This document shows, piece by piece, positions 957 through 38,109 of a stretch of 64,000 nucleotides of DNA. The first letter of the stretch is position 1; the number at the start of each line of letters is the position of its first letter. The notes beneath the pieces are model-generated. The model searched no databases. It saw nothing but the letters and a program-made list of their open reading frames with translations, and was not told the origin of the DNA. The DNA comes from Blautia sp. MSJ-19 (GTDB lineage Bacteria > Bacillota > Clostridia > Lachnospirales > Lachnospiraceae): the NCBI RefSeq assembly GCF_018918125.1, contig NZ_JAHLQA010000007.1, forward strand, positions 186,001 through 250,000, written 5' to 3'. The position numbers and the translations under genes are program-made.

Positions 957-1129
957 TGATACCAAGGCTTTAAAAGTACAAATGCTGAACCATGCTTACA
1001 TGGGGAAGCGTTTGAATTTAAAAGCCACTCAAACATGAGAAAGCAGCGAGTTGCGTAGCAAATCTGCGGATTTCTCATGTTTGCAGACTTGTGGGAATTG
1101 CGAAGCAATGGAACAAGTCGTGGGTATCA
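957..1129 (+). repeat. Three-armed structured repeat, copy A
   Basis: The outer arms TGATACC (957-963) and GGTATCA (1123-1129) are perfectly complementary. Inside are three consecutive hairpins: GGCTTT...AAAGCC with an inner CCATG/CATGG (about 966-1025), CAAACATGAGAAA...TTTCTCATGTTTG (about 1030-1084), and GACTTGT...ACAAGTC with inner TTGC/GCAA (about 1086-1119). Each arm has a purine-rich internal loop of the type GAA(A)/GGA. It starts one base after the upstream stop codon and ends 37 bases before the next start codon. A diverged copy with matching compensatory changes lies at 37402-37577. It may act as RNA (processing, attenuation) or be a mobile palindromic repeat. Confidence 0.75.
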
Positions 1130-35187: not shown

Positions 35188-37406
35188 TGATGTATGCAGA
35201 TATCATTGTGGATATATCCCACGAAAAACTTGACCGCAGTTTTCAATATAAAGTTCCGGAAGAACTGGAACAGGAGATCCAGGTGGGAATGGTGGTCACC
35301 ATTCCTTTTGGAAACGGTAATCATGAAAGAAAGGGATATGTGATCGGCCTTTCGGATAAGCCCGTATTTGACACAGCCAGGATGAAGGCACTCCGTGGTA
35401 TCTGCAACAGTGAGGAAACGACAGAAGCGAGGCTGATCACACTGGCGGCCTGGATGAAGAACCAGTATGGTTCTACAATGGTGCAGGCGCTGAAAACAGT
35501 GCTTCCTGTACGGGAAAAAGTCAAGGCAAAAGAAAAACGATATGTAGTTCTGAATATCAGCCAGGAGGACGCACACAAGCTGGCAGAAGAGCTGGAGAGC
35601 AGCAGATGCAAGGCAAGAGCACGTCTGCTCCGGGCCCTTGCCGATGAAAAAAAACTGGATTATACCAGGGCATCCAGAGAGCTTGGAATGACAACTTCTG
35701 TGATACGGCCGCTTTTGGACCAGGGAATCATCCGGGTGACCCAGGATGAGGTTTATCGTATGGCGGTAGACGGTGCAGCAATCCCGAGAGAGAGCCTGCC
35801 GGTACTTACAGAAGTACAGCAGGCGGCTTTTGCACAGATTACAGAAGAATGGAAAAAAGAAACACCGCGGCCGGTGCTGATCCATGGTGTGACCGGAAGC
35901 GGTAAGACGCAGGTCTATATGAAACTGATACAGCAGGTGATCGATGAGGGCAGGCAGGCAATCGTTCTGATTCCTGAGATTGCATTGACGTATCAGACTG
36001 TTCGCAGATTTTACGGATGGTTCGGAGACAAAGTGTCAGTTCTGAATTCCCGACTTTCCGCAGGAGAACGATATGATCAGTTCAAAAGAGCCAAACGCGG
36101 CGAGATCCAGATCATGGTGGGACCGCGTTCTGCTCTTTTTACACCTTTTTCCAGACTGGGCCTGATCATTATTGATGAGGAACATGAACAGACTTACAAA
36201 AGTGAGAACAGTCCCAGATACCATGCCAGAGAGACGGCTCTTTACCGGGCAAAGATGGAGCATGCAAAGGTCGTACTGGGATCGGCAACACCATCTCTTG
36301 AAGCTTATACCAGAGCAGTGCAGGGAGAATATCTTCTTGTAAAACTAAATGCGCGTTTTGCAGACCGTCCGCTTCCGGAGGTTTCTGTTGTGGATCTCAG
36401 AGAGGAACTCAAAGCCGGGAACCGCTCTGTGCTCAGCAGAAAACTGAAAGATGCTGTCGAAAAGAGGCTGGAGCGGGGAGAACAGTCGGTACTGTTTCTG
36501 AACAGAAGGGGTTATGCAGGCTTTGTTTCCTGTCGTTCCTGTGGAACGGCGATGAAATGTCCACATTGTGATGTGGCACTGACGGAACATAACAATGGCA
36601 GGCTCGTATGTCACTACTGCGGTTATGAAAGACCGAGAGTAGAGAAATGTCCGTCCTGCGGTTCTCCGTATATCGGTGGATTTAAGGCCGGAACACAGCA
36701 GATCGAGCAGATCCTTCGCAAAACATTTCCGAAGGCAAGAATTCTCCGGATGGATTATGATACCACCAGGACAAAAGGCAGTTACGAAAAAATCCTGTCT
36801 TCTTTTGCGGCGCATGAGGCAGATATTCTGGTCGGTACGCAGATGATCGTCAAAGGACATGACTTTCCGGATGTGACACTGGTCGGAGCTGTGGCAGCAG
36901 ATCTTTCGCTGAATGCAGCCGATTATTGCTGTGCAGAACGGACATTTCAGCTTCTGACGCAGGCAGTCGGGCGTTCTGGCAGAGGACGCAGACCGGGAGA
37001 GGCGATCATTCAGAGCTATCATCCGGAGCATTACAGTATTCAGGCAGCGGCCAGACAGGATTATGAAGCGTTTTATCAGGAAGAAATGTCGTACCGTGTG
37101 CTGATGGATTATCCACCGGCAGCACATATGCTTTCGGTCCTGGCATCCGGGGAAAATGAAGAGCTTCTTGATCAGGGAATGGAATATCTGGCAAAGTTCG
37201 TGGAGAGAATCAGCGCGAAATACAGGATTCATGTGATCGGACCCGCTTATGCTACTGTGGGAAAAGTCAATGATATCTACCGTAAAGTCCTTTACCTGAA
37301 ACACCAGGATGGTCATGTGCTGCAGGATATAAAAAACAAAACAGAGAAATACATTGAAGTAAATTCCGGTTTCCGGAAATTATATATTCAATTTGACTAT
37401 ATATAA
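35187..37406 (+). CDS. priA: Primosomal replication protein N' (PriA helicase)
   Basis: 739 residues. 3'-5' helicase that restarts stalled replication forks. N-terminal DNA-binding domain, Walker A HGVTGSGKTQVY, DEEH box (IIDEEHEQTYKSE), GSATPSLEA, and the zinc-binding insert with paired cysteines (CRSCG, CPHC, CHYCG, CPSCG) between helicase lobes, then VGTQMIVKGHDFP and QAVGRSGRG. The start overlaps the murE stop (TAATG); a second ATG follows directly. The stop codon lies in the outer stem of the structured repeat. Confidence 0.96.
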   Translation: MMYADIIVDISHEKLDRSFQYKVPEELEQEIQVGMVVTIPFGNGNHERKGYVIGLSDKPVFDTARMKALRGICNSEETTEARLITLAAWMKNQYGSTMVQALKTVLPVREKVKAKEKRYVVLNISQEDAHKLAEELESSRCKARARLLRALADEKKLDYTRASRELGMTTSVIRPLLDQGIIRVTQDEVYRMAVDGAAIPRESLPVLTEVQQAAFAQITEEWKKETPRPVLIHGVTGSGKTQVYMKLIQQVIDEGRQAIVLIPEIALTYQTVRRFYGWFGDKVSVLNSRLSAGERYDQFKRAKRGEIQIMVGPRSALFTPFSRLGLIIIDEEHEQTYKSENSPRYHARETALYRAKMEHAKVVLGSATPSLEAYTRAVQGEYLLVKLNARFADRPLPEVSVVDLREELKAGNRSVLSRKLKDAVEKRLERGEQSVLFLNRRGYAGFVSCRSCGTAMKCPHCDVALTEHNNGRLVCHYCGYERPRVEKCPSCGSPYIGGFKAGTQQIEQILRKTFPKARILRMDYDTTRTKGSYEKILSSFAAHEADILVGTQMIVKGHDFPDVTLVGAVAADLSLNAADYCCAERTFQLLTQAVGRSGRGRRPGEAIIQSYHPEHYSIQAAARQDYEAFYQEEMSYRVLMDYPPAAHMLSVLASGENEELLDQGMEYLAKFVERISAKYRIHVIGPAYATVGKVNDIYRKVLYLKHQDGHVLQDIKNKTEKYIEVNSGFRKLYIQFDYI

Positions 37407-37577
37407 ATACCAAGGGGGAAAAGTTCAAAAAGCTGTTCGTGCTTGCACGATAAGGCTTTTGAACTTGGACCCCGCCAAATATGAGAAAGTAGCAATTTAC
37501 GTAGTAAATTTGCGGATTTCGAATATTTGTAGGATTGTGAAAGCAGTTTACTGCGGAACAATCCGTAGGTATTTATA
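37402..37577 (+). repeat. Three-armed structured repeat, copy B
   Basis: Outer arms TATAAATACC (37402-37411) and GGTATTTATA (37568-37577) pair perfectly. Inside: AAGTTCAAAAAGC/GGCTTTTGAACTT with TCGTGC/GCACGA (about 37421-37466), CAAATATGAGAAA/TTTCGAATATTTG with inner GCAATTTAC/GTAAATTTGC (about 37476-37529), and GGATTGT/ACAATCC with GCAGT/ACTGC (about 37532-37564). Compared with copy A, stem bases differ on both sides so that pairing is kept, while the GAGAAAG and TGCGGATTTC loop segments are conserved. It overlaps the priA stop and ends 58 bases before def. Confidence 0.75.
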
Positions 37578-37635
37578 TAGTACTATAATACATATTGTAC
37601 TATATATACATAAGACAAAGAAAAGAGGAAGAAAA

Positions 37636-38109
37636 ATGGCAATCAGAGTAATTCGTACAGAAGAAGATCCGGTACTGAGAAAAATCAGCAAACCGGTAAA
37701 AGAAGTAACCCCAAAGATCGTGACACTGATCGATGATATGCTGGATACAATGTATGAGGCAATGGGAGTTGGTCTGGCAGCACCGCAGGTCGGTATCCTG
37801 AAACGTATTGTAGTCATCGATGTAGGAGAAGGCCCGATCGTGCTGATCAATCCGGAGATTCTGGAGACTTCCGGAGAACAGACAGGTGATGAAGGCTGTC
37901 TGAGTGTACCGGGAATGGCAGGACAGGTGACCAGACCGAATTATGTAAAAGTCAGAGCGATGGATGAGGATATGAATGAAGTGATCTATGAGGGAACGGA
38001 GCTTCTTGCCCGTGCGTTCTGCCATGAGATCGATCATCTTGATGGAAAGATGTATACAGATCTGGTCGAGGGAGAACTTCACAGAACCAGTTACGATGAA
38101 GAAGACTGA
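37636..38109 (+). CDS. def: Peptide deformylase
   Basis: 157 residues. Removes the formyl group from nascent proteins. The three motifs are complete: GVGLAAPQVG, EGCLSVPG (Cys ligand) and HEIDHLDG (HExxH). Start ATG 37636 behind AAGAGGAAG; the frame is open upstream through the structured repeat but without a usable start. Next gene fmt adds the formyl group, the usual def-fmt pairing. Confidence 0.96.
   Translation: MAIRVIRTEEDPVLRKISKPVKEVTPKIVTLIDDMLDTMYEAMGVGLAAPQVGILKRIVVIDVGEGPIVLINPEILETSGEQTGDEGCLSVPGMAGQVTRPNYVKVRAMDEDMNEVIYEGTELLARAFCHEIDHLDGKMYTDLVEGELHRTSYDEED

Follow-up and report, generated by a model that had tools for sequence, protein, structure and literature searches.

Two structured repeats in a 64-kb Lachnospiraceae window are very probably copies of a MITE whose body is the Rfam Clostridiales-1 RNA

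The window analysed here, a stretch of 64,000 nucleotides, carries two copies, A and B, of a structured repeat. Copy A is placed between co-directional oxidoreductase and shikimate dehydrogenase genes, with a TAA stop codon (953-955) just 5′ and the ATG of a gene carrying a shikimate dehydrogenase domain, at 1167, 37 nt 3′. Copy B lies between co-directional priA and def (peptide deformylase); it overlaps the TAA stop of priA and is followed, after 61 nt, by the def ATG at 37636. The first-pass annotation had both repeats abutting a stop codon and ending 37 to 58 bases before a gene: contact with a stop codon holds for both and the 37 nt for copy A, the gap for copy B being 61 nt and not 58. 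Since both copies are located between co-directional genes, they are probably transcribed. Downstream of copy A, the adjacent + strand genes at 1167-2054 and from 2534 resemble paralogous shikimate dehydrogenases, the first by its Pfam Shikimate_dh_N domain and the second as judged by eye only. The features are as follows.

957..1129, + strand: copy A, RF01699 body of the probable MITE, outer stem 957-963 with 1123-1129 (cmscan, model R1, fold)
966..1026, + strand: copy A arm 1 (MFE structure)
1030..1083, + strand: copy A arm 2, CAAACATG ... CATGTTTG (MFE structure)
1086..1119, + strand: copy A arm 3, GACTTGT ... ACAAGTC (MFE structure, sequence)
37396..37405, no strand: direct repeat ACTATATATA, left copy, probable remnant of the copy B target duplication (sequence)
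37405..37574, + strand: copy B, RF01699 body of the probable MITE, outer stem 37405-37411 with 37568-37574 (cmscan, model R1, fold)
37414..37473, + strand: copy B arm 1 (MFE structure)
37476..37529, + strand: copy B arm 2 (MFE structure)
37532..37564, + strand: copy B arm 3 (MFE structure)
37574..37606, + strand: copy B downstream hairpin, TATATAGTAC ... GTACTATATA, where complete elements have a fourth arm (read from sequence)
37599..37608, no strand: direct repeat ACTATATATA, right copy (sequence)

A search of Rfam models (cmscan) places family RF01699 (Clostridiales-1) at 957-1129 and 37405-37574, where the two repeats had first been noticed, and their tentative description as a known Clostridia RNA motif was correct. 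Copy A scores 107.5 bits and copy B 126.1 bits, each over positions 1-166 of the 166-position model and far above its curated gathering score of 48. At Rfam gathering thresholds the only other match in the window is a TPP riboswitch (RF00059; 33390-33497, - strand), whose 58 bits barely exceed the gathering score of 54.3. A covariance model built from 32 copies, A and B included (R1), scores copy A at 117 bits and copy B at 135.2 bits, and these were its sole matches in the 64-kb window at E ≤ 1. Rfam classes the family as an sRNA gene and ends its model with the outer stem. Table 1 of Weinberg et al. 2010 (PMC2864571) gives the motif as a probable RNA, probably not cis-regulatory and probably not a riboswitch. 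Among the matches listed in a full-text literature search, none linked the Clostridiales-1 family to a mobile element.

Each copy folds into the outer stem and three arms seen at first reading, with an MFE of -70.4 kcal/mol (z -7.3) for copy A and -65.3 kcal/mol (z -7.9) for copy B; 0 of 200 shuffles were as good in either case. The complementary strands of A and B fold likewise (z about -7.4), so that folding by itself cannot assign a strand. An internal loop of the GAA(A)/GGA kind, attributed earlier to every arm, proved an approximate description: arm 2 has two purine-rich internal loops and arm 3 has one of GGGA/GGA type.

The repeat is not confined to these two copies, and the first refutation offered in the first-pass annotation, a lack of further copies in the genome, fails. 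The genome that holds the window has 15 RF01699 matches, 5 of them above the cut-off; those below it are mostly partial, for instance arm 3 only, or arms 1-2 lacking arm 3. By the deformylase gene, the closest named relatives are for the most part Blautia, which is therefore the probable genus. Of 60 genomes of that genus, 46 have matches and 14 have none, with 0 to 37 per genome when at most 38 candidates were scored in each. Over the family, represented by roughly one genome for each genus and with 9 candidates scored per genome, matches were found in 161 of 299, and over the class in 6 of 196, five of which belong to the same family (the window's genome included) and one to another family of the same order. 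Matches are thus patchy in occurrence and tied to lineage. Letter-identical copies amid unrelated flanks, three of 168 bp in genome G056 and three of 177 bp in G035, point to recent spread. A plasmid search with copy B gave no match. The corresponding phage search returned six faecal, unannotated ‘Bacteriophage sp.’ records (MT837057.1, MT839604.1 and four more), all partial, covering 28-77% of the query.

Beyond the bounds of the Rfam model, amplified copies continue. Their similarity extends past the Rfam 3′ end, mostly via a further (fourth) hairpin, to a right terminal repeat ...CTTTTGACCCCAACATC or a variant of it, and then to a 7-bp target duplication. Read inward, this right end is GATGTTGGGGTCAAAAG, an imperfect inverted repeat (~17 bp) of the left end GATACCAGGGTCAAAAG. 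In copies with exact duplications, the left end of the Rfam model is the left end of the mobile unit. The end pattern, with at most one mismatch, occurs 92 times in G035, compared to 0 for a reversed-pattern control. The whole element measures about 200 bp, is without coding capacity for a transposase and is present in many dispersed copies.

Ends were examined in 59 copies from six genomes (L166, where the contig ends, was left out). A right end was recognised by a regular expression in 39 of them, and 19 of these 39 are flanked by an exact 7-bp direct repeat, while 6 more differ at one position; when the same flanks were paired wrongly, 1.6% of 1482 pairings were identical. Three copies with the repeat out of register by one base (L063, L165, L179) were counted as failures. 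The duplicated 7-mer is AT-rich, with the consensus ATWWWAT. Among six copies from other genera inspected by eye, right ends were similar and three (L277, L279, L280) had exact 7-bp repeats. The regular expression recognised no right end in 20 of the 59 copies, including 8 of the 9 G002 copies, the ninth having a string that resembles a chance match, and all 6 copies of the AAAGTCC type; the G002 type and the AAAGTCC type (G031, G046, G053, G056) thus stand as RF01699 subtypes without a recognised right end.

Several observations were made alongside. A second RF01699 subtype, starting with TGAAAGTCC / TAAAAGTCC (L148-L150, L181, L182, L184; also L035 and L037), usually follows a TA dinucleotide, and several of its copies are followed by a GATGTCTGCG..GCAGACAT hairpin; this subtype is probably mobile with different ends. 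At L053, L055, L060, L061 and L153 another element starts immediately beyond a copy's right end or duplicated site, which suggests tandem or nested insertions. Mini-elements of about 36-70 bp made almost solely of the two terminal repeats were seen in G035 and G038 (L192, L219-L222). Duplicated target sites (ATWWWAT) often contain TATAAT-like hexamers, and insertions may favour -10 promoter boxes. The idea that the TTGACC in the ends forms an outward hybrid promoter was rejected: -10-like hexamers are not in excess at the right spacing, and the target itself is TATAAT-like.

An autonomous element with matching ends was found in the same genus. In G013, an element of about 1.86 kb, the left flank of which is lost at a contig end, has inverted ends GATGTAGGTGTCAAAAG / GATGTGGGTGTCAAAAG and encodes a 534-aa transposase with the Pfam domains DUF772 and DDE_Tnp_1_6. 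The best-scoring NCBIfam model listed is IS1182, with 125.2 bits for this transposase and 122.5 and 132.3 bits for two relatives; as these scores are under the equivalog cut-off of 270, we call the element IS1182-like. Relatives of the transposase are present in 8 of 32 genomes chosen from the 60: full or nearly full IS copies in G010, G013, G014 (three) and G038, a partial one in G042 and small fragments in G029, G036 and G058. The G010 IS has lost one end at a contig edge; its preserved end GATGTTGGGGTCAAAAG is letter-identical to MITE right ends in that genome. The G014 copies comprise two of 1865-1866 bp, with related ends and with ATATTAT and GTAAAAT as exact 7-bp repeats, and a third whose ends are less good (5 mismatches) and whose 7-bp repeat has one mismatch. 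An end pair was looked for at the G038 IS and none was found. At the sequence level, then, the IS and the MITE agree in their ends, in the length of the duplication and in their AT-rich targets. They differ in that the MITE lacks a gene for a transposase and that a search of 11 IS loci gave 0 matches to the MITE body, so that the MITE is not a simple internal deletion of an IS1182-like element.

We conclude that the repeat is very probably a MITE, that is, a non-autonomous DNA transposon of about 200 bp whose body is the Rfam Clostridiales-1 RNA. The first reading, which took the repeats for an RNA or cruciform motif, had missed this main point: with their terminal inverted repeats, target duplications and matching autonomous IS, they are copies of a mobile element and not locus-specific RNAs. 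The IS1182-like DDE transposase would act on the MITE ends and move the element in trans. No match to the transposase was found in the window's genome, nor in the copy-richest genome, G035 (assembly 83% complete). Among the 32 chosen genomes, RF01699 match counts are higher where a relative of the IS is present (mean 16.5 versus 9.6, one-sided p = 0.03), a weak link because draft assemblies lose IS copies.

Two other modes of movement were dropped. RNA retrotransposition had come up because some G035 copies are apparently 5′-truncated with an intact 3′ end, a few of them with a repeat on either side; it seemed less likely after inverted ends, 7-bp repeats and an IS with a DDE transposase had come to light. 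One-ended copies are more simply explained as products of deletion or of alternative ends. Single-strand hairpin movement of the IS200/IS605 type was set aside because the ends match those of an IS with a DDE transposase and because the IS200/IS605 family is not known to make a target duplication.

The window sites have a history that can be partly read from relatives. The copy B site is empty in the closest relative, G029, where the priA- and def-matching parts are 25 bp apart. No full copy was found within the 130 nt 5′ of def in 12 chosen genomes, and an R1 search of 80 named def loci gave no match beside def, with a single weak hit 2.3 kb off in L100. By eye, L065 and G009 (apparently the same genome) have a short remnant in opposite orientation 5′ of def, and G038 has a mini-element of about 40 bp flanked on each side by ATAATCAA, the corresponding place in G058 having one ATAATCAG. 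Copy B itself is flanked by the 10-bp direct repeat ACTATATATA, at 37396 and 37599, a probable and not a proven duplication given that the flank is AT-rich and partly palindromic. The left end is readable in both window copies. Copy A showed no right terminal repeat and copy B a single candidate, much altered; nor was a clear right end seen in the copies of this genome. The hairpin downstream of copy B is a putative homologue of the fourth arm. For copy A, G029 alone among 64 genomes searched matched both flanks. In G029 the insertion is the same, left junction included, with arm 3 and half of arm 2 lost, and its arm 1 differs from that of copy A by apparently compensatory changes. Copy A therefore predates the split from G029, where the loss of these arms indicates that it is partly dispensable. 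Both window copies look like old passengers between co-directional genes.

Their position, with start codons 37 nt (A) and 61 nt (B) downstream, also brings to mind a cis-regulatory leader, riboswitch-like or protein-responsive, that controls the following gene. Orientation was examined in two sets, with crude ORF calling in both. Over 47 placements, 27 of the 34 ORFs that lie downstream at up to 400 nt shared the element's orientation, which would suit a leader, and so did 25 of 38 upstream; in the 59 amplified copies the corresponding counts were 31 of 54 downstream (31:23, p = 0.34), which does not suit one, and 26 of 52 upstream. Against a leader are also the unrelated downstream genes at the two window sites, the relatives that keep priA-def without copy B, and the 2010 table, which marks the motif as probably not cis-regulatory and probably not a switch (PMC2864571). 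We consider a leader controlling its downstream gene very unlikely, and a riboswitch or gene-specific leader was disfavoured as the main reading in view of the 0 to 37 matches per genome of the genus, the unrelated window neighbours and the ‘n’ in that table. The orientation data would agree with elements inserting at random and then being kept more often in one orientation, without being proof of it.

That pairing is kept by compensatory changes, as the first-pass annotation had claimed from two copies, was borne out when 32 full copies (5 of the window's genome and 27 best-per-genome copies from the same genus) were aligned with MAFFT: at 30 of 34 RNAalifold pairs, at least one sequence has both sides changed and the pair kept. 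In a model-fitted alignment of 65 rows, which is biased towards structure, 95.0% of cells pair, compared to 75.3% after shuffling and 31-49% with partners slid by 1-3 columns; kinship among copies can beat shuffles without any structure, and it is therefore the slid control and the independent alignment that carry weight. Seven of the unpaired columns, all G or A, do not vary across 49 non-redundant full copies. Conservation, taken as the mean majority frequency of a column, is higher in the 21 hand-selected internal-loop columns of arms 2 and 3 than in their 48 paired columns (0.85 versus 0.76, one-sided p = 0.02), whereas for the element as a whole it is the paired columns that are better conserved (0.77, versus 0.70 for the unpaired). 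These data support selection on a folded single strand. As to the cruciform in the earlier proposal of selection on RNA or cruciform structure, both strands fold, and the unpaired purines, invariant on one strand, would favour a single-strand fold over a cruciform.

Covariation might also arise without selection if palindromes were maintained by mutation bias, such as template switching between the arms. Pairs do alternate between G-C and A-U, wobble states being few, as this would predict; the internal loops, on the other hand, remain unpaired and conserved, and where copies within a genome are nearly identical, most changes affect a single side of a pair and often disrupt it. At 95% identity or more (92 pairs of copies, not independent of one another), we counted 130 broken pairings, 66 one-sided changes with the pair kept, 37 two-sided changes with the pair kept and 2 two-sided broken. 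Mutation bias as the origin of the covariation seems highly improbable to us.

More serious is the possibility that the fold matters as DNA, as a hairpin or cruciform during replication or movement, and not as RNA. Both strands fold about equally, and wobble pairs are rare, with 2.7% of paired cells in 53 copies (0.9% in arm 3) compared to 15.1% in a 30-sequence TPP control, a difference that narrows to 3.4% versus 7.5% when only comparably variable pairs are taken. Over all pairs of the 49 non-redundant copies among these 53, G-U shows no clear excess over A-C (44 versus 32, p = 0.21). In 28 well-aligned pairs picked for few mismatches the figures are 29 versus 8, which speaks against a DNA fold, the picking itself favouring G-U. 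The seven invariant unpaired purine columns likewise point to one strand, and a DDE transposase with inverted ends is not known to require internal hairpins. We regard a role of the fold as DNA as rather doubtful.

The same covariation and invariant unpaired letters would be expected of a true trans-acting small RNA gene family, duplicated around genomes, for which the mobile ends would be secondary hitchhiking. Some copies and subtypes are without a recognised right end, and the motif was given in the 2010 table as a probable RNA and probably not cis-regulatory (PMC2864571), both in keeping with such a family. Yet the left end of the Rfam model is also the left end of the mobile unit in copies with exact duplications, matches vary from 0 to 37 within one genus with 14 of 60 genomes lacking any, and partial copies are frequent, and we hold this explanation to be quite unlikely.

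Returning to a MITE with a selected fold, the reading we favour, with less certainty than the identity of the element itself, is that the fold would allow a transcript carrying the element to tolerate it, or to benefit from it. The element would land in transcribed gaps and leaders, and its three-armed body would be kept for its effect as RNA, a step to which we give confidence just short of even. A compact RNA with purine-rich internal loops might limit the damage to the host transcript or bind a host protein, and copies would persist.

Structured bacterial MITEs such as Correia/NEMIS, BOX, ERIC and RUP are short, dispersed and intergenic, with inverted ends, and can fold when transcribed. 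The Clostridiales-1 MITE is like them in all these respects and unlike them in its three distinct covarying arms, in its invariant purine internal loops and in having entered Rfam as an RNA family. A passage of Rfam 12.0 (PMC4383904) discusses MITEs in connection with microRNA families.

The identification gives an orphan Rfam family of gut bacteria a probable concrete identity, which would explain why its distribution is patchy and its copy number variable; it also extends the boundaries of RF01699 by a missing right end and a fourth hairpin. It is a warning that mobile elements can turn up when RNAs are sought by covariation. Where pipelines score RF01699 hits as sRNA genes, what they count is probably MITE copies. 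In its widest and more tentative form, possible rather than probable in our view, the whole family would be a transposon that spreads as DNA and survives folded as RNA, its non-coding body being selected as an RNA and its old copies kept as leader RNAs; the predicted RNA may then bind a host protein, tame transcripts or aid its own movement. Why a DNA transposon retains such an elaborate RNA-like fold now becomes a testable question.
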